Shown here piece after piece: positions 9,406-45,310 of a stretch of 64,000 nt of DNA (the first letter of the stretch is position 1; the number at the start of each line of letters is the position of its first letter). This DNA is from Nostoc sp. T09 (lineage in GTDB: Bacteria > Cyanobacteriota > Cyanobacteriia > Cyanobacteriales > Nostocaceae): NCBI RefSeq assembly GCF_002154695.1, contig NZ_MTAV01000078.1, positions 1 through 64,000 on the forward strand, in the 5' to 3' direction. Under the pieces are notes generated by a model. It had not been told where the DNA came from. It did no database searches and worked only from the letters and a program-made list of their open reading frames with translations. Both the position numbers and the translations under genes were made by a program.

Positions 9406-11805
9406 TTAGGTATTCACGCTATCCACAGTCAATTTAACTTGGACAATTAGATCGTTGTAATCCCAATCGCTGCCTGCTCCTGTTACATCCTCAAAGCCAA
9501 AACAGTTATTGCCTAGTAAGCGGACATGATTGTTTTTGTCAGAATTTGCGCCTAAGAATGGACTGTAAACTGCAAAGTCATTAGAATTGCTACTTAAAAT
9601 TGCCTCTACAGTGCTATTAGCAATCATAAAAGGTGCAAAGAGCCAACCTGATTCAAAACTGCCGGAGAAAGTAGCTTTACCTTGGTTATTCACCTTCAAG
9701 TCAATGCCGTCAACACGAGAGCGAAGCATAGCTTTAATGTAGCCTGCATCCCCTGGACGGAAATCAATTTTTCCGTCGTTATCACTATCAATGCCACCAT
9801 TCTCATCATTTACTTTACAGAAGCCAACTAAGTTGTCGTAAGCAGCTTCTCTGTTAATGACAAACTCCGCTTTAACCTTAGTTTTGGTTTCCCGTAAATC
9901 GATGAGTTCACCTTGATGCTTTCCTTGAAGACCTATCCCTAGAGGTATGTCTTGATTAGTTTCTTTAAATTTCACCACTAAATCGCTACCATTAATAGAT
10001 ACACCCTTCCAAGTTAGAGAAAAGCCTTCAATTTCTGAGCTTTCCACTTTGACATTAGTGGCGGAGGAAAAGACTACCTCAGAGAAAGAGGTTTGTCCAG
10101 ACAGCACAGCATCAGTGTTGCTGTTGCGTATCATATAAAATCTCAAGTTTGCACCTGAGTCGAATTCTAATAGCCTTGGTAGGTCAGCTGGATTAAAACC
10201 ATCAGGTGCATTGGCAATAGCAGAGCAAACTACCTTTGCTCGCTTGAGCGCTACTTCTGCATAACCTGCTGCACCAGGAGCAATACCATCAATCGTACCT
10301 TGGGCATCGTCAACAATAAATACACCTATTTCGTTGACTACTTTAGAAGTGCTGCCTTCAATTTTGATTGAGATTTTTGCTTTATCACCTTTAACTTTAC
10401 TTTTGACGGTAAAGATATTCTCCGTAATATTTATGAAATTGACAATCGTTGTTATTTGGTTAGTTGCAGACAACCCCAGTTCGTTAACATTAATAGCCAA
10501 TTCCTTTTCAAAGGAGAGTCCTCCACTGTCAGTAGTGCGGACGCGGATATTGTAGTTAGTTTTAGTTATTGAAGATTTAATTTTAAGGCTATCTTCCTCG
10601 ATCGTGAATGCATCATTATCAGTATCGCCAGTACCTTCAACTAAGGTATAAGTATACATGTCGTTTTTATCTGCATCAGTAGTGCTGAGGATACAGATAG
10701 CTTTTTCATCTTCACTAGTAGTATCATCTTCATCTTCGCTGATAGCACTAAATACTAAGTCTGTGGGAGCAGAGTTATAAACCAACACCGAGACTTTGCT
10801 ACTATCAGCATTCGCTACTACTAAGTCAGGTTTTTCATCACTGTTCAAATCTCCCACAGCCGCGTAAGCCGAAGATGTTTCGACTGTGAAATCGGTAGCA
10901 GTACCAAAACCACCATTACCATCGTTCAACAGCACTGAGACGTTGTTGGCGGTCGCATTTTTTGCCACCACTAAGTCAAGTTTGCCGTCACCGTCTATAT
11001 CTTCCAAGACGACAGAATTAGGACTTGTCCCGACTGTGAAATTGGTATAAGTGCCAAAACCACCATTACCATCATTCAACAGCACCGAGACATTGCTAGA
11101 AGCATAATTCGCCACTACCAAGTCGAGTTTGTTGTCACCATCTATGTCTCCGACTGCGATCGCATTCGGATTTGTCCCGACTGTGAAGTTGGCGGGAGTA
11201 CCAAAGCCGCCACCACCATCGTTCAACAACACTGAAATGTTGTTGTCATCAGCGTTCGCTACTACAAAGTCAAGCTTGTTATCACCATTTATGTTTAACA
11301 ATGCGATCGCATTCGGATTTGTCCCAACTGTGATATTTATGGGAGTATCAAAACCGCCACTACCATCGTTCAATAACACTGAAACGTTGTTGTCATCAGC
11401 GTTTGCTACTAGCAAGTCAAGTTTATTGTCACCGTCTATGTCTCCCACAGCAATGGAAGAAGGTTTTGTTCCGACTGTAAAGTTGATAGGAGTACCAAAA
11501 CCGCCACTACCATCGTTCAATAACACTGAAACATTGTTGTCATCAGCGTTCGCTATCACCAAGTCAAACTTGCTATCACCATCTATGTCTTCTGAGGTAA
11601 TGAAAACTGGATTGGTTCCAACTGCGAAGTTAATAGGAGTACCAAAGCCATCATTACCATCATTCAACAACACTGAAATGTTGTTATCAGCAGTGTTCGC
11701 TACCGCTAAGTCAAGTTTACCGTCTCCATCTAAGTCTTTCACTACCACAGAAGAGGGATTTGAACCGACAGGAAACTCGTTGGCGCTTGCAAATGATAGG
11801 CTCAT
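9406..11805 (-). CDS. FG-GAP/VCBS repeat protein with C-terminal DUF4114-like domain
   Basis: About 799 residues. The first ~350 consist of seven ~49-residue units, each with a calcium-loop motif of the DIDGDNKLDL type followed by NNVSVLLNDGNGGFGT. This is the FG-GAP/VCBS family, which folds as a beta-propeller. A cadherin-like stretch follows (around TDADKNDMYTYTLVEGTGD). The C-terminal segment with NNHVRLLGNNCFGFEDV and GSDWDYNDLIVQ matches DUF4114. I chose the ATG at 11805 (MSLSFASANEF), since the 23 codons before it do not belong to a repeat. There is no N-terminal signal peptide, so a leaderless type I-like export to the surface is inferred. Confidence 0.83.
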   Translation of the reverse strand: MSLSFASANEFPVGSNPSSVVVKDLDGDGKLDLAVANTADNNISVLLNDGNDGFGTPINFAVGTNPVFITSEDIDGDSKFDLVIANADDNNVSVLLNDGSGGFGTPINFTVGTKPSSIAVGDIDGDNKLDLLVANADDNNVSVLLNDGSGGFDTPINITVGTNPNAIALLNINGDNKLDFVVANADDNNISVLLNDGGGGFGTPANFTVGTNPNAIAVGDIDGDNKLDLVVANYASSNVSVLLNDGNGGFGTYTNFTVGTSPNSVVLEDIDGDGKLDLVVAKNATANNVSVLLNDGNGGFGTATDFTVETSSAYAAVGDLNSDEKPDLVVANADSSKVSVLVYNSAPTDLVFSAISEDEDDTTSEDEKAICILSTTDADKNDMYTYTLVEGTGDTDNDAFTIEEDSLKIKSSITKTNYNIRVRTTDSGGLSFEKELAINVNELGLSATNQITTIVNFINITENIFTVKSKVKGDKAKISIKIEGSTSKVVNEIGVFIVDDAQGTIDGIAPGAAGYAEVALKRAKVVCSAIANAPDGFNPADLPRLLEFDSGANLRFYMIRNSNTDAVLSGQTSFSEVVFSSATNVKVESSEIEGFSLTWKGVSINGSDLVVKFKETNQDIPLGIGLQGKHQGELIDLRETKTKVKAEFVINREAAYDNLVGFCKVNDENGGIDSDNDGKIDFRPGDAGYIKAMLRSRVDGIDLKVNNQGKATFSGSFESGWLFAPFMIANSTVEAILSSNSNDFAVYSPFLGANSDKNNHVRLLGNNCFGFEDVTGAGSDWDYNDLIVQVKLTVDSVNT
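10780..11790 (-). repeat. In-frame tandem repeats (about 147 bp) encoding FG-GAP units
   Basis: Seven diverged copies of a ~147-bp unit lie inside the FG-GAP gene. Several neighbouring copies are nearly identical over long stretches, for example the units covering 11280-11640, which suggests recent duplication or gene conversion. The repeats also create a long antisense open frame that I do not regard as a gene. Confidence 0.8.
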
Positions 11806-12220
11806 GATTGTTTTATTGAATAGTGTTTTGGCTTCCTCACCCTGTTTCTTTTCAGATCGCAAGATAATTAACAAAAGTAATATTCTTCATTGAAATGTGA
11901 GGAATATACCATTCAGATTATTTCGGAAATCATGAAAAATGCCTCAGTAAAGACACTATAAACTCTATATTGTAGAAATTACGCAAGACAATAGCATTTT
12001 TCTCCGAAATAGAGAATTGCAGAGTTGTATGTAAATTGTGTTGCCAAAAAGTTTCTAGAGACTAATGACTGGTAGCAATTTGACTGTTGCTGTTATCAAT
12101 AACACTAATATCTGGCTGTATCTGCATTGTGATGAGAATTATTATGCAGAGAATTGAGAGTGATATCTCTAGTCAAATAAACCTATTAAATGACTAATAT
12201 TTTGCAGATTCAGACAATAT
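11806..12220. other. Divergent intergenic region, promoters presumed
   Basis: AT-rich spacer between the divergently transcribed FG-GAP gene and the LuxR-type regulator. It must hold promoters for both, but I see no confident -10/-35 pair, operator or RNA gene. Confidence 0.4.
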
Positions 12221-12850
12221 ATGATAACCCTCAAAAATACTTCAGCAAAAACCGAAACTACAAACCAAAATTGCGATACATTGCATTATTGTGACTTGTT
12301 ACAACTCTATTTTTTACAATTGGTCATCGAAAACTTAGAAGATGGTATTTTAATTTTAAATGAGGCGGGAAATGTCTTTCATGCTAATGCATCTGCCTAT
12401 CAAATATCTACTCAATTAAAGTCAGAATATGGTAAGGAAAAATTTATCCATCCAGTCATATCGCAGCTTTGCCAGTCTTTAATTGATCATCAAAGTTGGA
12501 ATTCTGATAACCTAATGATTTTATCTGATGAAATTATAGTTAATCAGTCAAATATTTTTCGGATTCGGGTAAAATATCTGAGTTTTAAAATTACCCAGAT
12601 ACCTTATTTTTTAGTAACTATTGAAAATCGCTATGAAACTCTAAAAAATTTTGCGATCGCTGAAGTAAAAAAATATGAGTTGACACCACGAGAAGCAGAA
12701 ATTTGGTCTCTATATAGAGGCAATTATAGCTATAAAGATATCGCTGCTAAACTGTACATTACCATCAATACTGTGAAGAAGCATATGAAAAATATCCATG
12801 CTAAACGACAAGCATATCTAAAAACACAGCAGCATTATCAAATATTCTAA
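12221..12850 (+). CDS. LuxR-type transcriptional regulator with PAS-like N-terminus
   Basis: A 209-residue protein. Residues about 30-75 (LVIENLEDGILILNEAGNVFHANASAYQ, quoted in part) look like the start of a PAS domain. The C-terminus holds a clear LuxR/GerE helix-turn-helix: LTPREAEIWSLYRGNYSYKD and TINTVKKHMKNIHAK. There is no receiver domain, so activity would be set by the PAS-like sensor rather than phosphorylation. It is divergent from the FG-GAP gene and could control it, which is inference from position only. A terminator-like hairpin follows. Confidence 0.78.
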   Translation: MITLKNTSAKTETTNQNCDTLHYCDLLQLYFLQLVIENLEDGILILNEAGNVFHANASAYQISTQLKSEYGKEKFIHPVISQLCQSLIDHQSWNSDNLMILSDEIIVNQSNIFRIRVKYLSFKITQIPYFLVTIENRYETLKNFAIAEVKKYELTPREAEIWSLYRGNYSYKDIAAKLYITINTVKKHMKNIHAKRQAYLKTQQHYQIF

Positions 12851-12918
12851 TTATTTGCTTTAGAGAATTTAAATGTAGATCCCTGGTACAAAATTTTCTT
12901 AGGTAATTTTATTGGAGG

Positions 12919-12942
12919 CTTAAGAGTTACCTAGCTCTTAAG
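12919..12942 (+). terminator. Hairpin terminator after LuxR-type gene
   Basis: CTTAAGAG and CTCTTAAG form a perfect 8-bp stem with an 8-nt loop, followed by AATTTTAATT, about 70 bases after the stop. Confidence 0.5.
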
Positions 12943-13125
12943 AATTTTAATTCAAAATTGATATGAGCCACTAAAGGGAGCCGCAAACGCGCAAATTGGT
13001 GAGCATAAATTTAAACAATTGTACTGTTTGCTTTGATAATGTATGGGCATTTTTCATTTCAGCAGATTAGTGTGAATACACTAAATTTTGATTTTAGGAA
13101 TTCCTAAACTTTTATTGATTTCCAT

Positions 13126-13605
13126 TTAAGGATTTTTAGCAGGATTTTGGATGCGTATTAATGTATTGGAAATCTGTCGTTTCAAGTTATCATCACTTTG
13201 TATGTCTACAGTAATCTTATTGAATTGCTCAATAGTAAGACCGTTATCTTCTACTATTTTTTGAGAGCGTTGGCAGTAATTGACTGCAATATCTTGAGCT
13301 TTTTTTGGTAGACTACCAATGCTTTTAGAGTCATTACAAACTATCTTAGGAATTTCTCGCTCACCCATCAGTTTTTTAATTTCGTCAAAGGCTTGTTGAC
13401 GTGCTGGCTCCATTGCTAATACGGCTTGAGCATAGCTAGTGATTTGATTAGCGTTAAGTGGTTGTGGGTTTTGAGCACTAGCTTTACCACTAACTATCAG
13501 AGCGCTGGCAACTAAACCAACAGTAGCGAGAGCACTGTAAGATAAACTTTGCGAAAGCATTTTTTGTAAGCTTCGTTGGAAAAACAAATCAGCCATTTTT
13601 TTCAT
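13126..13605 (-). CDS. DUF4168 domain protein, exported
   Basis: A 159-residue protein with an N-terminal hydrophobic segment (about residues 20-45, ending SGKASAQN), consistent with a cleaved signal peptide after AxA. The rest matches DUF4168: NANQITSYAQAVLAMEPARQQAF and the C-terminal LTIEQFNKITVDIQSD, rich in charged helices. Members are common in cyanobacteria and of unknown function, presumably in the periplasm or thylakoid lumen. The start may be the first or the fourth codon (13605 or 13596). It is not clearly part of an operon. Confidence 0.72.
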   Translation of the reverse strand: MKKMADLFFQRSLQKMLSQSLSYSALATVGLVASALIVSGKASAQNPQPLNANQITSYAQAVLAMEPARQQAFDEIKKLMGEREIPKIVCNDSKSIGSLPKKAQDIAVNYCQRSQKIVEDNGLTIEQFNKITVDIQSDDNLKRQISNTLIRIQNPAKNP

Positions 13606-13733
13606 ATAGTGTGTGACACAGAACTACAGTAGGGATATGTTATTGGCTTTGAATTATTTTAGGAGTAAGAAGTTCCACAAACTCACCAATCCATGAAATT
13701 TTTATATAATCCATCAAATTTTTAGATTTGGTG

Positions 13734-14723
13734 TTAGCTTCCTCTGGACACTTGACAAAGTTCTATCACTTTCGTCTGGAGAGTGGCTATATCTGAATAT
13801 CCTTGCTTAAGACTAACTTCTAACTCCAGCAACAGAGGTAAAGTGGAGATTAGTTGCTGTACAGAAAGTGATTTGACTTCTTGTTGTAAAAAGTAAATAC
13901 GTTTAGGGTTACCTATCTCAGCAGCTTGAGCGATCGCTTGGGGATTTCGCTCACCACTTTCCATCATAATTTTTACCCATAACCAGGTGCGAAATTGACC
14001 AATCAATGTAGCAACTATCCGTAAACCAGGCTCAGAAGCATTGATCAGATCGCTTAAGGTCGTCAAAGCTTTAGCTGTGTCTCCAGTTCTTATTGCTGCT
14101 GCTAATTGTAAACTATTTTGGGTAGTATTCCTGACTAGCTTAGTAATTATATCAACATCTAAAGGCTGAGTACTACTAGCCGTATAGAGGCGCAACTTCT
14201 CCATTTCATTATAGAGAAGCCGTGTATCGTTACCTACAGATTCTGCTATTAGTTCTGCTGTCTTGGGTGTCAATTTTACGCCTACGGTTTGAGCAGCTTG
14301 ATTCACAGCTTGTACAAGCAACTCGGTTTTCCAGGGTGGTATCAGCGGAAATTCTCGGAACTCCGTAGCATATTGCTTCAAGATTTTCGTTGATTTTAAG
14401 CGTTCATCGGGTTTGTTGCGACTGGTGATCAATAAAAATGAGTTCTCCGGAATTACAGGTAAGGTTCGCCCAAGTTCTGCTAACACATTATCTGGGCAAT
14501 GTTGACACAGAGTAGTATTGACTAACCATACCAACCTTCCACCAGCACCAAAACTTGGTGTCATGACTTGATTTAACCCTTGAATCGCCGCATCAGGTTG
14601 ATCTGGAAGCAAGGAAGTGTAGTTAAAACTTGTCCATTGGGGATCGAGGACGCGATCGCATAAAACAGCCACCGCTTTTTCTATAGCAAAATCATCTTCG
14701 CCCCAGTAAACATGAATGGGCAT
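13734..14723 (-). CDS. holA: DNA polymerase III delta subunit
   Basis: About 329 residues, matching HolA over its length. The N-terminal segment (MPIHVYWGEDDFAIEKAV) and the central LLITSRNKPDERLKSTKIL fit the degenerate AAA+ fold of the clamp-loader delta subunit. The C-terminal helices (LRIVATLIGQFRTWLWVKIM and EVSLKQGYSDIATLQ) are also typical. Delta opens the beta sliding clamp during loading. The frame opens at 14753, but family members begin at MPIHVYWG, so I use the ATG at 14723. The gene stands alone on the minus strand. Confidence 0.87.
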   Translation of the reverse strand: MPIHVYWGEDDFAIEKAVAVLCDRVLDPQWTSFNYTSLLPDQPDAAIQGLNQVMTPSFGAGGRLVWLVNTTLCQHCPDNVLAELGRTLPVIPENSFLLITSRNKPDERLKSTKILKQYATEFREFPLIPPWKTELLVQAVNQAAQTVGVKLTPKTAELIAESVGNDTRLLYNEMEKLRLYTASSTQPLDVDIITKLVRNTTQNSLQLAAAIRTGDTAKALTTLSDLINASEPGLRIVATLIGQFRTWLWVKIMMESGERNPQAIAQAAEIGNPKRIYFLQQEVKSLSVQQLISTLPLLLELEVSLKQGYSDIATLQTKVIELCQVSRGS

Positions 14724-37809: not shown

Positions 37810-39357
37810 TTATTGCAAGCGATCTTTTAAATGGTCGGCAACACGTAAGGCATTAGCAATAATAGTTAATGCTGGATTAACTGCTGCGCTAGAAACGAAG
37901 AAACTAGCATCAACTACATAAAGATTATCTAGTTCATGGGCTTTGCAGTTAATATCAAGTGCTGAAGTCTGGGAATCATTGCCAAAGCGGATTGTACCGC
38001 ATTGATGGTTGATACCTGCTAGAGAAACTTTTTTACCAACATATAATGAAGAAGGTATGAGATAATCTTCACATCCAATTTGGCTTAACATACCTTCAAA
38101 TTTGTTAATTAACTGTTTATGTGCTGTTAAGTTATTAACAGCATATCTCAGAGTAATCTCTCCTTTACTATTTAAAGTCACCCGATTGTCTGGTTCTGGT
38201 AAATCTTCTGTTACCAAGCAGAAATCAATCCCATTTTTAGCAATAGTATCTTCTGTAATTCCTAGCATTGAAGGCAGTAATTCAGCTTCTAGTAGCTCTG
38301 GAGTAGATTTGCCAAGTAATTGAATATTACCCATAGGGTATTTCCAATCATCAGTGCCAAAGTAAAAGTCGTTTAATCCAAAAGTTTTTTGAAATACTGT
38401 AGGATTAGGTTCACGAGAAATTGCGATAAAGGAAGAATTAGTGTGGCGCATATAGTGACGACCTACAACACCCGAACCATTAGCTAAACCATGAGGATGT
38501 TTCTCGTTTGCCGAGCGTAATAATAATGCCGCTGAGTTAATAGCACCACAGGCAACTACTACAATGGCAGCTGAATACTCCTCTAAAATACCGTTGCGTT
38601 CTACATGGATTTTGGTCACTTCACGACCAGAAGCATTGGTTTCTAAGCGCTGTACAAATGCATCAGTAATCAGCGTCACATTAGCATTTTGTAATGCTGG
38701 TTGCACGCAAACAGTATGAGCATCAGCTTTAGCTGCTAATAAGCAAGGAAATCCACCACAAGTATTGCAGCGAATGCAAGAGCTAGTTTGTAAATCTGCT
38801 TCGTTTAGCATGATTCCCAATGGTAAAGGAAATGGTTGATAGCCAAGCTGACAGAAATCATCAAAAAGTTTTTGTATCCGAGGTTCATGGCTTACCATCG
38901 GATATGGATAAGGCGAACTCGCAGGTGGTTCTGTAGGGTCAACACCACGCAGTCCATGTACGTGATAAAGATACTCAGCTTGCGTATAATAAGGCTCAAA
39001 GTCTTCATAGCTGAGTGGCCAAGCTAGGGAAATACCATCGTGATGTACGAGTTTACCAAAATCTTCGGCACGAAAGCGCATTAAGGCTGAACCGTAAAAC
39101 TTAGTGTTGCCACCAACACAGTAGTTAGTAGGTGAACTATGAGCCTGACCTTTCTCGTCGTACCAGGTTTCTTGAGATCTATATTTCTTATCAATGAAAA
39201 CTGCACGGGTATCCCAATTATCTTTTTCTCGTGGCAAGTATCCACCTCGTTCTATCAGTAATATATCCTTACCCAGAAGAGATAAAGCGTAAGCAAGTGT
39301 CCCGCCACCTGCACCTGTACCAATAATAATTACATCAAAATGCTTTACTTGTGGCAT
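37810..39357 (-). CDS. GMC-family FAD oxidoreductase
   Basis: A 515-residue flavoenzyme. The FAD-binding motif is IIGTGAGGGTLAYALSLLGK (residues 11-30), and NYCVGGNTKFYG is the family's second signature. The C-terminal catalytic part has GINHQCGTIRFG with the active-site His, and AAVNPALTIIANALRVADHL with the paired Asn. An unusual insertion carries C194, C197, C200 and C205 (CX2CX2CX4C), a possible metal or disulfide site. It should oxidise an alcohol or sugar-like hydroxyl. Co-location with two O-methyltransferases and a MocA-type dehydrogenase suggests a tailoring pathway. Confidence 0.87.
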   Translation of the reverse strand: MPQVKHFDVIIIGTGAGGGTLAYALSLLGKDILLIERGGYLPREKDNWDTRAVFIDKKYRSQETWYDEKGQAHSSPTNYCVGGNTKFYGSALMRFRAEDFGKLVHHDGISLAWPLSYEDFEPYYTQAEYLYHVHGLRGVDPTEPPASSPYPYPMVSHEPRIQKLFDDFCQLGYQPFPLPLGIMLNEADLQTSSCIRCNTCGGFPCLLAAKADAHTVCVQPALQNANVTLITDAFVQRLETNASGREVTKIHVERNGILEEYSAAIVVVACGAINSAALLLRSANEKHPHGLANGSGVVGRHYMRHTNSSFIAISREPNPTVFQKTFGLNDFYFGTDDWKYPMGNIQLLGKSTPELLEAELLPSMLGITEDTIAKNGIDFCLVTEDLPEPDNRVTLNSKGEITLRYAVNNLTAHKQLINKFEGMLSQIGCEDYLIPSSLYVGKKVSLAGINHQCGTIRFGNDSQTSALDINCKAHELDNLYVVDASFFVSSAAVNPALTIIANALRVADHLKDRLQ

Positions 39358-39518
39358 GAAGTCTGAGCTACTAAAGTTTTAGAAAATGTTTATAAACTTT
39401 GTCAGGTAAATATGTACAGAAAGAAGCATCTAAGTAAAAATTGTGAGGAGTTTAAGGAGGCTTTTTAGACCTTTGATTTCATACTAAAAATAACTATTTG
39501 TCATGCCTTTATATAGCC

Positions 39519-40604
39519 TTAACTTGCTACAAGATACTTAGAATTACGCATATTAGTAGTTAAAGAATGTAAGATTTGCACAATTTTTATTCCCATTTCG
39601 GCTGAGTAAGGATTTTCTGCTTTACCTTGAAAATAGCTCAGAGTTTTCTGAAAATGTAGCATCATTGTGTCATCACAAATAGGAGCAATAATTTTTTCTA
39701 TCTTGCCATTTTTACTAACATAAACTGCTCCCTGACAACGATTGAAATAATTAATAGGCTCTAAAAAACCTACAACGCAATATTGATCGTTGTGACAATC
39801 ACTTCCATGTAAAGCAAGCATTCTATATTTAGATTCTTGATCTTGATGAGGAATGTCATCAGTAAAAAATAGAGGATAGTTATATTTGATTTTACCCATC
39901 ATGGAAGTATATAATTCTATTTCTACTCCTGAAGATGATTTATAGCGAATGTAAGCACTGCCTTGATTATCTAGATACTGCTGAGAATCTTGAAAAACAA
40001 AATCATTAAATTCAGTTTCCAAAATATTATGGGGCATATCTTCTGCAAGCAGAGCAGATACAAGTGCTACCATGTGAGAACCTTCATAGCCTAGAGCTCC
40101 TAGGTCGTTGTCGATAAATCGACCTTTTATGAAATCTAATTCTCGGTTTTTGGTAAATTCAACAACTATTTTTTTGGGAGTAATATGCAAATCTTGAATA
40201 GCACTTTTCTTCACAATATCTTTAATAATGGATGAGGCATAATTCTCATTTACTGTGATTTTCCCCTGAAAATCTAACAATTTTTTCTTAAAATCGGATA
40301 TTTCTGAAAATAAACAGATAGGCTTTTCTACAAGAATATTTGCTTTTGGCGCAACTTTGATAATCTCTTTTACTATTTCAAAGTGTTGGTCTGTACTAAC
40401 GCAAATGTCCCAAAAACCTGGGTTAAGTTTTGCTGCTTCTAAGCAGGTATTAAATACTATAAATCCCTTTTGTTGGGCCTGTAATGCTTTTTGCTCATTT
40501 GTTTCAACAATAGCAACGGTTTTAACCCCATACTCTTGCATTTTGCTTTCATGTATTTGAGCAACACGACCGTATCCCACCCTGATACATGTAATTTCTT
40601 GCAT
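39519..40604 (-). CDS. Gfo/Idh/MocA-family oxidoreductase
   Basis: A 361-residue NAD(P)-dependent oxidoreductase. The Rossmann start is ITCIRVGYGRVAQIHESKMQ, where the usual GxGxxG is GYGRVA. ILVEKPICL provides the EKP motif, and GYEGSHMVALVSALL probably carries the catalytic His. Family members oxidise or reduce sugars, inositols and amino-cyclitols. It is the first gene of the operon that continues with the GMC oxidoreductase and the methyltransferases, 161 bases downstream. The substrate is unknown. Confidence 0.8.
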   Translation of the reverse strand: MQEITCIRVGYGRVAQIHESKMQEYGVKTVAIVETNEQKALQAQQKGFIVFNTCLEAAKLNPGFWDICVSTDQHFEIVKEIIKVAPKANILVEKPICLFSEISDFKKKLLDFQGKITVNENYASSIIKDIVKKSAIQDLHITPKKIVVEFTKNRELDFIKGRFIDNDLGALGYEGSHMVALVSALLAEDMPHNILETEFNDFVFQDSQQYLDNQGSAYIRYKSSSGVEIELYTSMMGKIKYNYPLFFTDDIPHQDQESKYRMLALHGSDCHNDQYCVVGFLEPINYFNRCQGAVYVSKNGKIEKIIAPICDDTMMLHFQKTLSYFQGKAENPYSAEMGIKIVQILHSLTTNMRNSKYLVAS

Positions 40605-40949: not shown

Positions 40950-41653
40950 TAAAACATAGTTATATGTTGGTTGCGATTGAAGTATTTATGAATAATTAAT
41001 TTAACAAGAATTTCTACATCAATATAGTTGCATACAGATTTTTATAAGTCAACAGAATTTTTTAATATTCTTTGAATAGGTAGGAACCTTTGCTCATTCT
41101 TAAAAGGGATATTGTTGTGTGAGCGTGGGAGGTTTACTGAATATATAGATGAAGGGCTACCTTTTAGGCACACCATGCTGTTTTAATCTATAGATTATTT
41201 TCTAAGCATTTATGCTCAGTTATTTACTTTTAAGTAATGAAGTAATAACCAAGTAAGTCAGCAAATATTACTTACTAAATTCCTGTAATTATTACTAAGC
41301 AAAGATTTTAAGAGCCATGATCGCGCATTTCAAAAATGGGAATGCCAACAAAAGAGGTAGAAAGTATTGAAGGCGTGAATAAATCGCCGTCATAGCTTTT
41401 GGGGATGGTTGCGTCGGTTATGGCGTTGGGTATGTGGTTGGCTTCGGCGTTGATTTTTTTGTCTCGCGCAGAGACGCAAAGAAGATTTGAGACAGGGTTT
41501 TATTGTTGCAACAGCTAATAATAAAACTATTTTGACTTTTGTGCGGCGATACTAGCCATTTTTCTAGGGTAGATTCTCCCCAATTTTCCGATGCCAGGTA
41601 TCAGCAAAACAAGGCAGGATATGAGCATCTCAGAAAATTTGTGGAGAAATTGA
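40950..41653. other. Intergenic region upstream of the HtrA-like operon
   Basis: About 700 bases without a convincing gene. GTCTCGCGCAGAGACGCAAAG at 41461-41481 contains the GTCTC/GAGAC inverted repeat often scattered in these genomes. The final ~100 bases should hold the promoter of the HtrA-like operon. Confidence 0.4.
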
Positions 41654-42652
41654 ATGTCTTCGTTACTAGAATTGTCTAACAGTTTAGCCGATACCGTAGA
41701 ACAAGCTGGAAGTGCTGTGGTTGCAGTGAATGCTGGTACACGCATCTCCCCAAGTGGGATTCTCTGGCGTCATGGTATCGTTGTTACTTCCGATGAGTCG
41801 CTTCAGCGTTATGACGAAATCACCGTCACTTTATCAGATGGGCGTTCTGTCGCTGCTACACATTTGGGGCATGACTCTAGCACTGATATAGCTGTTTTCC
41901 AACTCCCAGATGTAGAAACCCCTGTGGCGAAAATTGGCGATGCGACAACACTGAAAGTCGGTAATTTAGTACTAGGAATAGCTAGAAGCAACGAAGGCGA
42001 GTTGCGGGCGGCTATGGGTGCTGTGAGTGCGATCAGTGGTGCTTGGCGGAGTATGAGTGGTGGTAATATCGACCAATTCATCCGCCCAGATATTAACCTT
42101 TACCCAGGCTTTGCAGGTGGTCCGCTTGTAGATGCGGCTGGTTATGTGGTAGGCATGAACACATCAGGAAGGCGCGGTACAGCTTTAACTATTCCAGCGG
42201 CTACAGTCAATCGTGTAATCGATCAATTGATAGCAAAAGGACACATTGCCCGGGGTTATCTAGGTGTGGGAATGCAACCTGTACGCTTGCCGGATAACCT
42301 TAAAACAGCGTTGAATTTAACTGCTGCTACTGGTGTGATTGTTGTCAATGTCGAGTCTGCTGGCCCAGCGGACAATGCAGGTGTGCAGCTTGGGGATGTG
42401 TTGGTCACATTCGATGGCACAACTGTGAGTGATACAGCTGATGTGATGGCGCTGCTTAATAGTAGCGATCGCGTCGGTAAAACTGTTCCCATGCAAGTAG
42501 TGCGGGGTGGAGTGTTAGTTGAGTTAGCGATCGCAGTTGGCGAACGACCATTTGAGCAGTCCCCACGTCCAGAACGTGCGGAAAAAGCCAATGATTTCTC
42601 TCATCACAGAAGAGGGAGACATGGTAGGAGAGGTTCATCCCATTCACGTTAA
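41654..42652 (+). CDS. HtrA/Deg-like PDZ protein with lost catalytic residues
   Basis: A 332-residue protein with an S1C chymotrypsin-like fold (about 10-195) and a PDZ domain (about 195-295; GYLGVGMQPVRLPD, GPADNAGVQLGDVLVTFDG). The usual TNAHV is TSDES, so the catalytic His is E48, and GNSGGPL is GFAGGPL, so the catalytic Ser is A154. Only the Asp (D78) remains. It should not cleave peptide bonds and may be a scaffold or decoy. The C-terminus is rich in His, Arg and Ser. There is no signal peptide, so it is cytoplasmic. It is first in an operon with an intact homologue. Confidence 0.83.
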   Translation: MSSLLELSNSLADTVEQAGSAVVAVNAGTRISPSGILWRHGIVVTSDESLQRYDEITVTLSDGRSVAATHLGHDSSTDIAVFQLPDVETPVAKIGDATTLKVGNLVLGIARSNEGELRAAMGAVSAISGAWRSMSGGNIDQFIRPDINLYPGFAGGPLVDAAGYVVGMNTSGRRGTALTIPAATVNRVIDQLIAKGHIARGYLGVGMQPVRLPDNLKTALNLTAATGVIVVNVESAGPADNAGVQLGDVLVTFDGTTVSDTADVMALLNSSDRVGKTVPMQVVRGGVLVELAIAVGERPFEQSPRPERAEKANDFSHHRRGRHGRRGSSHSR

Positions 42653-42716
42653 CTAATTAAGGCAGAAGGAAGCAGGCTGTGTTTCGACTACGCTCAACAA
42701 CCGGGCAGAAGGGAAT

Positions 42717-43556
42717 ATGACTACAAAAATTACATACCTCACCGATGAATTGGCAACTTTAGCTGCTAAGTTACGCCACAGCACGGTCAAAGTTCAAAGC
42801 AATTCTCAAGGAGTTGGTTCTGGTGTAATCTGGCAAAATGATGGGTTAATTATCACCAACGCTCATGTTGCAATTAACAACAAAGCAAAGGTGGAATTGG
42901 CCGATGGACGAGTGTTTGATGCTGTGCGCACCCACTTCGACCCACAGCAAGATTTAGCTGCTCTGAAAATTACTGCCACTGACTTAAACACTGCAACTAT
43001 TGGTGATTCTGATGCACTGCGTGTAGGTGAGTTAGTCTTGGCGGTGGGTAATCCGTTTGCTGATACTGGAGCAGTTACCGCAGGGATTATCCATACTCGT
43101 CATCAGGGAGCAGTTATGGCAGATATCCGACTGTATCCTGGCAATTCTGGGGGACCGCTAGCCGACTGTCTCGGTCGAGTTGTAGGGATTAACACAATGG
43201 TTGTTAACGGTTTGGCTGTAGCCATCCCCAGTTTAGCTGTGAATCGCTTTCTGCTTGCTCCTAGTCGTCCGCAACTGGGAGTAACATTGCAACCTGTGCT
43301 AATAGGTCAACGCAACTTTGGTTTATTAGTGTTGTCTGTCCTTGGTGACAGTGCGGCTGCGAAGGCTGGTGTAAAAATTGGTGATGTCTTAATTGGCGTA
43401 TCGGGTCAATTATTCACTAAAAGCGATGACCTGGGCAAATATCTGCAACAAAGCCAAGATCGGGAATCATTACCGTTACAACTCTGGCGTGGCGGTCAGC
43501 AACTTGTTGTTTATGTTGAATTGCAGAGTGGGAAAACTGCGGTGGAGGCAACATGA
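42717..43556 (+). CDS. HtrA/Deg-like serine protease with intact triad, cytoplasmic
   Basis: A 279-residue protein with an S1C protease domain (about 10-185) and a C-terminal PDZ domain (about 187-270). The triad is complete: H50 (TNAHV), D79 (DPQQDLAALKI) and S144 (GNSGGPL). No signal peptide or membrane helix precedes the protease domain, unlike the usual exported Deg/HtrA proteins. It follows the inactive homologue by 64 bases and overlaps the regulator gene by ATGA, so the three genes are co-transcribed. A regulated intracellular protease, possibly controlled by its inactive partner, is the simplest reading. Confidence 0.86.
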   Translation: MTTKITYLTDELATLAAKLRHSTVKVQSNSQGVGSGVIWQNDGLIITNAHVAINNKAKVELADGRVFDAVRTHFDPQQDLAALKITATDLNTATIGDSDALRVGELVLAVGNPFADTGAVTAGIIHTRHQGAVMADIRLYPGNSGGPLADCLGRVVGINTMVVNGLAVAIPSLAVNRFLLAPSRPQLGVTLQPVLIGQRNFGLLVLSVLGDSAAAKAGVKIGDVLIGVSGQLFTKSDDLGKYLQQSQDRESLPLQLWRGGQQLVVYVELQSGKTAVEAT

Positions 43557-44185
43557 TCCGGGTGATGGTAGTTGCTACTTCTCCTGTGGTGCGAGCAGGT
43601 TTATCAGCTGTTGTGAATAGCAATTCCCAGATGAATGTTGTCGGGAGTGCATCCAACTTGGATACCTTGATCGGGGAAGTTGGGCAATTACAACCTGATG
43701 TAGTGCTGCTAGATTTAGGTAGCAATTCGCAATCATCAATCTGGGAAAAATTGCTACTTTTTCAAGAGGAGCAATACCCTGTAGGATTTCTTGTGATTGC
43801 AGAGGAACCAGAAAGCATCAATTTAGAAACGGCTATACGTTCTAGTGTTCGGGGTATATTACCTGGTGACAGTACAGAGTCAGAAATTATCGCTGCTGTC
43901 ATAGCGATCGCAGATGGTTTAGTAGTGCTACATCCGGATTTTTTGGAGTTACTGCCGATGCGGGAAAAAGTAGTGGCTCCTGCCGTACAAACTCTGACAC
44001 CAAGAGAAATTGAAGTATTAGAAATGCTCGGTTCTGGTTTAGGTAATAAAGCGATCGCTAAACACTTGCAGATTTCTGAGCATACTGTAAAGTTTCATAT
44101 CTCATCTATTTTCCAAAAGCTTGCTGTCTCTACGCGTACTGAGGCTGTAACTGTTGGTGTCAGGCTGGGTTTGATTATGCTCTAA
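43553..44185 (+). CDS. NarL/LuxR-type regulator with degenerate receiver
   Basis: A 210-residue protein. The receiver-like domain (1-120) keeps D54 (VVLLDLGSN), but the acidic pair is replaced (MVVATSPVV) and the conserved Lys is missing (RGILPGDST). Normal phosphorylation is therefore doubtful. The C-terminal LuxR domain is standard: LTPREIEVLEMLGSGLGNKA and ISEHTVKFHISSIFQKL. Its start overlaps the stop of the active HtrA-like protease. The pair may couple proteolysis to transcription, for example by the regulator being cleaved or bound, which is inference. Confidence 0.85.
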   Translation: MIRVMVVATSPVVRAGLSAVVNSNSQMNVVGSASNLDTLIGEVGQLQPDVVLLDLGSNSQSSIWEKLLLFQEEQYPVGFLVIAEEPESINLETAIRSSVRGILPGDSTESEIIAAVIAIADGLVVLHPDFLELLPMREKVVAPAVQTLTPREIEVLEMLGSGLGNKAIAKHLQISEHTVKFHISSIFQKLAVSTRTEAVTVGVRLGLIML

Positions 44186-44208
44186 TAATTAAGAAGTTTG
44201 TAGTAAAA

Positions 44209-44237
44209 ACTTTAGTCCTGTTATTGAGGACTAAAGT
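44209..44237. terminator. Bidirectional terminator hairpin
   Basis: ACTTTAGTCCT (44209-44219) and AGGACTAAAGT (44227-44237) form a perfect 11-bp stem with a 7-nt loop, and GTAGTA/TACTAC pair further out. It lies between the convergent regulator and the repeat-protein gene. Confidence 0.65.
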
Positions 44238-44268
44238 CCTTACTACGAGAGATTTTTATTAAGCTTAA

Positions 44269-45027
44269 TTACTCGGCTAATGATTGACCAGCTTTGCTCA
44301 GTAATTTACCTAGCTTTTTAAGTGGTCCTTTAAATCCTCTTGCTGCTTCAGCACCAGCTTGTTCGGTTTGTTCGCTTAGTTTCGTCAGCACTTGTGCAAA
44401 GTCTGCACCTTTAGCAGTTTTGCGCTTCAACAGTTGCTTAAGTTCTTTCAATCCATTGGCGATTTCTTGGAGATTTTCATTCTCAGACTTGTGCAGTAAG
44501 GTGTACCACGTATCGATTGCACCTTGCGCTGCTTCTGGCTCAATCTCTGTCAAGTCTCCTTCAAGAGTTTCTAACAACGAGTCTATTTGTTCAATTTGCT
44601 CGCGGTCTTCTTGTTTACCCAAGGAAACACCGATTTTGCTGAGTTGCTTACCCAATCTCTGCAAAGGAGTTTTCAGTTCCTTATCAGCCTCAGAACCCAA
44701 GTCGCTAGTTTGTTCGCCAATTTCGATGAGTACTTCTCCAATCTCATGACCTGTGGCTTTACCACTTTTCACAAGTTGCTTGAGGTTTTTGAGACTATTA
44801 GCAATTTCTTTGATTTCTGGTTCTTTGGCTTTGTGCAAAGAACTATACCACTGGTCAATTAAACTAACAGCAGCTTCATTATCTAGAGAAGTTAAATCTC
44901 CCTCCAGAGCCTCAAAAAGTGAATCTAGCTCCAAGTTATTGTTTTCATTGGTTTTTGTTGCTGTTGTACCTTCTTTTTTAGAGGCAGTTTCACTTTGTTT
45001 GTTCTTGCTTCCTTGTTGAGAAGTCAT
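44269..45027 (-). CDS. Unknown protein with two ~97-residue internal repeats
   Basis: About 252 residues. After a polar, low-complexity N-terminus (~35 residues) come two homologous units. Unit 1 begins LDSLFEALEGDLTSLDNEAA and unit 2 begins IDSLLETLEGDLTEIEPEAA. Both continue with D-x-WY-x2-LHK, a LKxLKQLxK helix, a DLGSEADKEL or AGAEAARGF segment and LGKxLSK. They are predicted all-helical. I chose the ATG at 45027 (MTSQQG); the frame opens at 45099 but the extra 24 codons look non-coding. No known family recognised. A helical adaptor or regulator is possible. Confidence 0.72.
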   Translation of the reverse strand: MTSQQGSKNKQSETASKKEGTTATKTNENNNLELDSLFEALEGDLTSLDNEAAVSLIDQWYSSLHKAKEPEIKEIANSLKNLKQLVKSGKATGHEIGEVLIEIGEQTSDLGSEADKELKTPLQRLGKQLSKIGVSLGKQEDREQIEQIDSLLETLEGDLTEIEPEAAQGAIDTWYTLLHKSENENLQEIANGLKELKQLLKRKTAKGADFAQVLTKLSEQTEQAGAEAARGFKGPLKKLGKLLSKAGQSLAE

Positions 45028-45310
45028 CTGTAAATTCCGTAACTCGCTATGTACAGGTAACACTTTATAAAGTTTCTGAAAGCTTTCCCTCATTCTCAAG
45101 AGTCAATATTCTGCCACTTGTATATAGACCCTGGGATAGAAACTACTTCCCAAGATGATGCGCTAAGAATTTGCGGAAATTTTTTTGAAGAGATGGCTTT
45201 ACTGTTTGGGCAGAAGGGAAGCATTCTATGAAAAAGATTGATTTACATAAACCAAGAGAACTGAAGTAGTACTTTCTACTTTTCCCAACCTTCTCGAAAA
45301 TAATTTAGCT

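Follow-up and report, generated by a model that had tools for sequence, protein, structure and literature searches.

DegS and AlgW are exported HtrA proteases whose PDZ domain reads hydrophobic C-termini and which control a transcription program through proteolysis of an anti-sigma factor. In CiaRH and CssRS, a histidine kinase and a response regulator with a canonical receiver control the expression of an exported HtrA. The present work concerns an operon found in a 64,000-nucleotide stretch of DNA from Nostoc sp. T09 (contig NZ_MTAV01000078.1, positions 1 to 64,000 of the forward strand), referred to here as the window. The operon encodes an HtrA-like protein with an incomplete catalytic triad (P), an HtrA-like protease with a complete triad (H), and a transcription factor with a pseudo-receiver (R). 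P resembles DegS and AlgW as an HtrA with a PDZ domain that probably reads hydrophobic C-termini, and structures of these proteins are among the Protein Data Bank (PDB) matches of its model. DegS and AlgW are exported and proteolytic, whereas P lacks an export signal and, in most cases, a catalytic site, and its partner R is of the NarL type. The likeness to CiaRH and CssRS lies in a response regulator that controls HtrA expression, as R probably does; a kinase, a canonical receiver, and an exported HtrA are found there, and a pseudo-receiver and no export signal are found here.

The nearest described pair of pseudo-HtrA and HtrA is MamO and MamE (PMC4794232). As in the operon, a dead HtrA lies beside an active one in a single cluster, catalysis has been lost more than once, and other functions have been retained. 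The passages of that paper drawn on here describe no transcription factor partner, whereas R is the constant partner of P. According to the same passages, MamO binds metal through surface histidines, possesses a TauE domain, and acts together with its active partner; P consists of trypsin and PDZ domains only and persists without H in 17 of 118 loci.

Pseudo-receiver regulators, as described in the sections used of a 2025 review (PMC12632262), resemble R in lacking the DD acidic pair and the Lys and in acting independently of phosphorylation, and some have a NarL-type output. The switching of such transcription factors is called a mystery there. The words “protease” and “proteolysis” are absent from the main text of the review, which thus names no protease-linked case in those terms. 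A 2016 review of cyanobacterial Deg proteases (PMC4877387) reports Degs without proteolytic activity in N. punctiforme ATCC 29133 and A. variabilis ATCC 29413 and suggests neofunctionalization, so the existence of inactive cyanobacterial Degs was already known. These are perhaps P-type proteins. The term “response regulator” is absent from the main text of that review, and its Deg section and related passages contain no such operon.

An operon of HtrA and pseudo-receiver genes was not found in the titles and abstract openings of the literature searched, a coverage that leaves out most subscription journals. The components are individually of familiar types; as far as searched, their combination, the constancy of that combination, and the promoter are undescribed. 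The presence of the three genes across many filamentous cyanobacteria, usually behind one promoter element of their own, suggests an undescribed kind of cell-internal control circuit.

Organization of the Operon

The three genes are as follows.

41654 to 42652, + strand: P, an HtrA-like pseudoprotease of 332 amino acids, with a Trypsin_2 domain (E48/D78/A154), an intact PDZ domain, and no signal peptide.

42717 to 43556, + strand: H, an HtrA-like protease of 279 amino acids, with a complete H50/D79/S144 triad, a PDZ domain, and no signal peptide.

43553 to 44185, + strand: R, a NarL/FixJ-type transcription factor of 210 amino acids, with a pseudo-receiver (A8/T9, D54, P104) and the C-terminus GLIML.

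The H and R open reading frames (ORFs) share an ATGA overlap. An original prediction, made from the window sequence, had described these three ORFs with their overlap, a first HtrA that has lost His and Ser and kept its PDZ domain, a second with a full triad and no export signal, and a NarL-type regulator whose receiver lacks the acidic pair and the Lys. Each of these descriptions agrees with the ORFs, alignments, and Pfam matches reported below; the retained D54 of R was not mentioned.

Distribution and Co-Occurrence

P orthologs are separated from other HtrA proteins by score (at least 304 bits versus at most 148). R profile scores in the genomes of the order are likewise bimodal, at least 234 bits in 49 genomes and at most 162 in the next. 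Among 388 genomes of the order, P is present in 49, R in 49, and both in 47. In the two P-only genomes P lies at a contig edge, and in one of these R is visible for approximately its first 30 residues. Both R-only genomes have parts of H directly before R, indicating that P was deleted.

Across all collections, 121 distinct P genes were obtained, of which 118 have downstream sequence and three lie at a contig edge. Some loci are shared between the named and the unnamed collections, and distinct sequences were counted where stated. R adjoins P in 113 of the 118 loci and H is present in 101, with all three genes together in 98 and R beside P without H in 15. The gene order P, H, R recurs, as followed together with the catalytic states over the 121 distinct P loci. 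The original prediction would have been refuted had the three genes rarely been together in other cyanobacteria; they form a conserved unit. Five P loci have no adjacent R. Four of these genomes carry an open and intact R ortholog elsewhere (280 to 291 bits), and in the fifth, Fischerella muscicola PCC 7414, only a 40-residue remnant of R was found. P and R are thus retained together and usually adjacent, as near-obligate genetic partners.

Outside the order, 386 genomes of the phylum were searched, and a full P-H-R operon is present in a single one (G532, from another order of the same class). A Paraburkholderia sprentiae plasmid carries P followed by R, with no H. Paraburkholderia was represented in the plasmid collection by two records, one of them decayed. 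The relatives drawn from genome contigs are the best 80 of 540, so that the spread outside cyanobacteria is poorly covered.

The part shared by 18 neighborhoods and the window consists of the three genes (or P and R). Some flanking genes are shared within the genus of the window, and the flanks differ outside it. The ratio of nonsynonymous to synonymous substitution rates (dN/dS), measured on four pairs of the window and a relative, is 0.10–0.14 for P, 0.12–0.16 for H, and 0.12–0.20 for R, the frames of H and R running from stop to stop and including up to 20 codons before the start. A chance neighborhood, or a set of decaying duplicates of periplasmic HtrAs, would be in keeping with the decayed copies that exist (the G023 locus, Paraburkholderia phymatum, and the truncated P of G226). 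It is already contradicted by the adjacency of R in 113 of 118 loci with changing flanks, by dN/dS values of about 0.1, and by the operon-specific promoter element described below, and its probability is close to nil. The observation is confirmed as real and not due to chance, with its center in the P-R pair and the promoter and not in the protease.

Several single loci are of note. The decayed copies consist of P fragments in G023 (L047), a two-frame P with an R fragment in P. phymatum (L212), and, in G226, a truncated P preceded by an intact box (L258). In Nostoc carneum NIES-2107, the operon is on plasmid1 (L055/L032), and the Paraburkholderia pair (L189) is likewise on a large plasmid. Nostoc flagelliforme FACHB-838 has two P loci (L067 and L117), the second without H.

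Two further origins were considered and rejected. A defence system was dismissed, as the PADLOC matches were weak trypsin and HTH (helix-turn-helix) cross-matches only. Viral or phage spread was dismissed, as a single-protein pattern scan of viral contigs gave no relative of P; the Paraburkholderia R had no phage match at an E value of 1e-20.

The Pseudo-HtrA

P matches Trypsin_2 and PDZ_2 above the Pfam cut-offs. In the window, Glu (E48) is at the His position and Ala (A154) at the Ser position, while D78 is retained. The triad is incomplete in 115 of the 121 distinct P sequences. Asp78 is present in all 121, and the His position is Glu in 108. The most common state is E-D-A (87 sequences), followed by E-D-G (9) and H-D-S (6), with the remainder various. 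Locus L205 and the Paraburkholderia P (L189) are also H-D-S.

A tree of P (67 rows) was constructed by a quick method, with Shimodaira–Hasegawa-like approximate likelihood ratio test (SH-aLRT) support only, and rooted on Paraburkholderia. Complete-triad P sequences are at the base. The tree requires a minimum of four switches between the complete and the incomplete state of the triad; one falls at the root of a 57-row clade (SH-aLRT 98), and three lie elsewhere. In a second tree of 32 HtrA rows, made by the same kind of method with the same support, P, H, and a set of nine further HtrAs fall into three distinct groups. A recent tandem duplication giving rise to P and H was therefore rejected as unsupported. 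P is not simply an inactive copy of H, given the separate clades, the basal position of complete-triad P, and the Paraburkholderia P-R pair without H.

With E48 and A154 in place of the catalytic residues and a low dN/dS, P fits a pseudoprotease maintained by selection; the dN/dS values and the invariant PDZ ligand loop described below indicate strong constraint. The alignments indicate that catalytic residues were lost repeatedly from a protein whose function was apparently not lost. Beside MamO, P is a second natural example of a conserved HtrA gene that has lost catalysis repeatedly, and the series from complete-triad to dead P in one gene neighborhood allows one to ask what replaced catalysis.

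In the PDZ ligand loop of P, residues G201, Y202, G204, M207, and Q208 are each present in 135 of 135 aligned rows, an alignment that was not deduplicated. The C-terminal ends of P and of H vary.

The greatest 17-residue hydropathy is 1.06 for P and 0.44 for H within the first 40 residues; five other HtrAs encoded in this genome reach 1.67 to 2.27 within their first 60 residues. These values are from the Kyte–Doolittle scale and not a trained predictor, and the scan lengths differ (40 versus 60 residues). As P and H have no hydrophobic N-terminus, unlike the five other HtrAs, both should be cytosolic.

General HtrA models of NCBIfam were matched by P (14 models) and H (15), in each case below the cut-off of every model. 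Neither protein falls within the DegP, DegQ, DegS, or HhoA/HhoB/HtrA subfamilies, with scores of at most 182–184 bits against cut-offs of at least 408. The AlphaFold (AF2) model of P has an HtrA fold with a mean predicted local distance difference test (pLDDT) score of 82, and its best PDB matches are MucD, DegQ, AlgW, and DegS.

The Pseudo-Receiver Regulator

R has a GerE HTH (73 bits) and a Response_reg match below the Pfam cut-off (23.2 versus 30.2 bits). Having both a receiver fold and a GerE HTH, it is of the NarL/FixJ type. The AF2 model contains a complete receiver and a NarL HTH (pLDDT 87.8), with a predicted template modeling (pTM) score of 0.60 that leaves the domain arrangement unsure. 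VraR, LiaR, ChrA, and DesR are first among its PDB matches, and NarL ranks 13.

In the window, A8 and T9 occupy the acidic-pair positions and P104 the Lys position, and the phospho-acceptor position is kept as D54. Among 113 distinct R sequences, 106 have Ala and two an acidic residue at the first acidic-pair position, and one retains the Lys. At position 54, Asp occurs in 87, Glu in 16, and Val in 7. R thus differs from a canonical receiver in having lost the DD pair and the Lys, with the Asp kept in 87 of 113. It agrees with the pseudo-receiver (PsR) of PMC12632262, defined in the part of the review used here as a receiver fold without phosphotransfer residues. Judged by these residues, nearly all 113 distinct R sequences are pseudo-receiver proteins. 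As R is without the residues for metal-dependent phosphotransfer, it is read as phosphorylation-independent.

R might still be phosphorylated by an unlinked histidine kinase, with the HtrA genes as its targets. Cyanobacteria have many unlinked kinases and regulators, and the Asp retained at position 54 in most sequences would suit such a kinase. The near-constant Ala of the first acidic-pair position, the single retained Lys, and the Glu and Val replacements at position 54 all argue the other way, and Pfam detected no histidine kinase domain in six recurrent neighbors of the operon, the only proteins covered by that scan. This arrangement is considered very unlikely.

The Paraburkholderia R has the same receiver losses as the cyanobacterial R. 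The P-R pair was therefore probably kinase-free before the lineages split, or was transferred in that state.

The terminal residue of R is Leu in 125 of 127 loci. The genome of Nostoc sp. T09 has 24 GerE paralogs, the C-terminus being readable in 11, and one of these 11 ends in Leu.

Two-Box Promoter Element

A conserved element, absent from the original prediction, lies upstream of P. Its parts are as follows.

41551 to 41568, + strand: box 1, ACTAGCCATTTTTCTAGG, a partial dyad of the form CTAG-N8-CTAG, conserved upstream of P across families.

41575 to 41593, + strand: box 2, TCTCCCCAATTTTCCGATG, resembling a direct repeat of box 1 at near-constant spacing.

41615 to 41620, + strand: a possible −10 hexamer, CAGGAT, proposed from the conserved GGCAcGATa downstream of box 2.

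The spacing of the boxes was measurable in 112 of 135 upstream regions and is 26–28 base pairs (bp), with 27 bp in 104. If CAGGAT is the −10 hexamer, box 2 would be centered near −43 and box 1 near −67 of the putative start. A class II activator site is usually centered near −42/−43. The element is therefore a candidate for LuxR-type class II autoactivation, the match being one of position only.

A position weight matrix (PWM) of 54 columns was built from 48 training sequences, mostly of Nostoc and relatives. With this matrix, 125 of 134 upstream regions reach 9.9, and none of 3.84 million background positions in the same loci exceeds −10.9. Scores of at least 15 were obtained in 35 of 47 loci outside the training set, some of which are re-fetched copies of training genomes, and in 22 of 27 loci of other families (L153–L179), the remaining five being one clade. 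G532 scores 48.9. Nine of the 134 regions score below 0; seven are Calothrix-like with both boxes visible, and two are diverged (L167 and L168). By eye, the boxes of the Calothrix-like regions are one base closer in six and one base wider in L120.

The full two-box match occurs once in the window and once in its own genome. A 37-bp pattern (up to 3 mismatches) gave 31 matches in the 388 genomes, one per genome, and the reversed control gave none. Thirty of these sites are before P and one (G226) is before a truncated P. All five P loci without an adjacent R keep the box at P, and none of the four relocated R genes has a box within 12 kb. In G342 (L203), where P is deleted, the box is kept before the H remnant and R. 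The two-box element is specific to the operon and stays with the P promoter where R has relocated. As the box stays at P with none near a relocated R, R would act there in trans if it is the binder. No Rfam family reached the gathering score within 41400–44400.

A wide R regulon was rejected. The 18-bp box (up to 3 mismatches) has 47 sites in the genome of the window against 21 for the reversed control, the two-box pattern occurs once, and the best other box site (C59) has no box 2.

Copies of box 1 alone occur elsewhere, and 12 of 15 such sites away from P were examined. Five lie inside ORFs of one family, and these are probably coding similarity. Box-1-like 17-mers recur on the opposite strand of this 1233–1258-codon ORF (L273, L276, L279, L280, and L281), which we take to be magnesium chelatase subunit H. 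The exact or one-mismatch copies near 2427 in L274, 2423 in L275, and 2752 in L282 lie upstream of an ABM-domain gene (G044 and G011, both exact) or near an oxidoreductase, presumably OYE-like (G017). The copies at the ABM-domain and oxidoreductase genes indicate a possible second R target, as a lead only. No box (up to 4 mismatches) was found near the 84% identical ABM ortholog of G018, a P-positive genome, or near three distant homologs that are likewise from P-positive genomes; two P-negative genomes have none at the start of the ABM gene.

The Intact HtrA

H matches Trypsin_2 and PDZ above the Pfam cut-offs, with H50, D79, and S144 present. The triad is kept in 101 of 102 distinct H sequences, the sole exception being a fragment. 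At the 118 P loci with downstream sequence, H is full-length in 85, short in 16, and absent in 17, where short (“PDZ-less”) denotes an open frame of less than 250 codons. The state of H (full, short, or absent) changes at least 22 times on the P tree. H is the dispensable member and the least constant of the three.

This bears on the intracellular proteolytic signaling circuit of the original prediction. The conserved, apparently cytosolic unit stands; its proteolytic part does not fare as well, as the active protease is the member most often absent, short, or changed. Cleavage of the regulator by the protease is therefore unlikely to be the core of the circuit.

A form of regulated proteolysis can still be formulated, in which P serves H as adaptor or regulatory subunit, stress leads H to cleave R (or P), and R is controlled through its level. 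MamO is reported to activate MamE-dependent proteolysis in magnetotactic bacteria, in the passages used of PMC4794232, and both the near-invariant triad of H and the 98 of 118 loci that carry all three genes would suit this scheme. The persistence of P where H is absent or too short for a PDZ domain, the P-R pair of Paraburkholderia, and the separate clades of P and H speak against it, and we regard it as improbable.

In a simpler scheme, P and H would provide ordinary cytosolic quality control, as holdase and protease, and R would simply be their local activator, controlled by a ligand or by its level and not in physical contact with P. HtrAs also serve as chaperones (PMC12826053, in the part used here), all three genes are under purifying selection, and an operon-specific two-box element, one per genome, suits a dedicated local activator. 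The scheme leaves unexplained both the retention of R beside P in the 15 loci without H and why P lost catalysis repeatedly while its PDZ loop stayed invariant, although neither point is decisive against it. It too is unlikely to be the full account.

Proposed Mechanism

The reading put forward here, with confidence that is about even, is a cytosolic and phosphorylation-independent P-R core module in which R activates the P promoter, P carries the input, and H is an accessory effector. It builds on the observed conservation and co-retention of the genes, the catalytic loss of P, the pseudo-receiver state of R, and the specificity of the element. R would bind both boxes and activate the operon from a class II-like position, with box 2 near −43, and the circuit would be autoregulatory where R sits in the operon. 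P, in which the protease domain is mostly dead and the PDZ loop is preserved, is the leading candidate for the carrier of the input; it would be a binding protein, its PDZ domain probably binding hydrophobic C-termini of damaged proteins and possibly that of R. The activity of R would be set by titration, R being held inactive until P is titrated. H would degrade clients and help to reset the system.

A more specific version, which we consider doubtful, makes P the sensor of a kinase-free “two-component” system. Here the PDZ domain would hold R through its GLIxL-COOH end, the hydrophobic C-termini that damaged cytosolic proteins expose would displace R, and freed R would fire the two-box promoter. 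If true, P as sensor would explain the switching of a bacterial pseudo-receiver in one family. As the pseudo-receiver factor has a near-obligate pseudoprotease partner and a once-per-genome promoter element, both its input and its target are testable in cyanobacteria.

A number of points weigh against the P-R module. We infer the contacts of R with the boxes and of P with R, as well as the signal and the role of H. The complete triads of six of the 121 distinct P sequences, of L205, and of L189 indicate that catalysis is not incompatible with the module. The PDZ domain of P is no more conserved than its protease domain (mean column identity of 0.78 versus 0.80). GLI or GLV is present near the C-terminus in 6 of the 11 readable GerE paralogs, so that only the fixed last residue of R is unusual, and this Leu may serve folding and not PDZ docking. 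With regard to the promoter, the 37-bp pattern (up to 3 mismatches) finds 30 of the 49 P genomes and misses 19, and G262, the other R-only genome, lacks the box. In F. muscicola PCC 7414, whose R was found only as a remnant, the box persists at P; another factor could therefore bind it, or the loss of R is recent. A single box 1 is not exclusive to the operon, as 15 of 30 sites in 58 relatives (up to 1 mismatch) are not at P, against 2 in the control.

Neighboring Genes

Upstream of the operon, on the opposite strand, the window carries a GMC oxidoreductase gene and Gfo/Idh/MocA-type genes (37810 to 40604, − strand). These have no relative in the 19 other neighborhoods compared. A Ser/Thr kinase gene lies approximately 3 kb from the operon, only in the window and its sister genome. 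The gene adjoining R (44269 to 45099, − strand) encodes a 276-amino-acid protein with no Pfam or NCBIfam match. Its two halves are alike by eye, and it adjoins the operon in 4 of 20 compared neighborhoods. Among loci of the same genus, an MCP/HAMP/GAF chemotaxis-type protein is encoded beyond P in six and a TPR protein in five (for example, 11103 to 14069 and 14669 to 17626 of L031, + strand), and two GNAT proteins are encoded on the far side of R in five.

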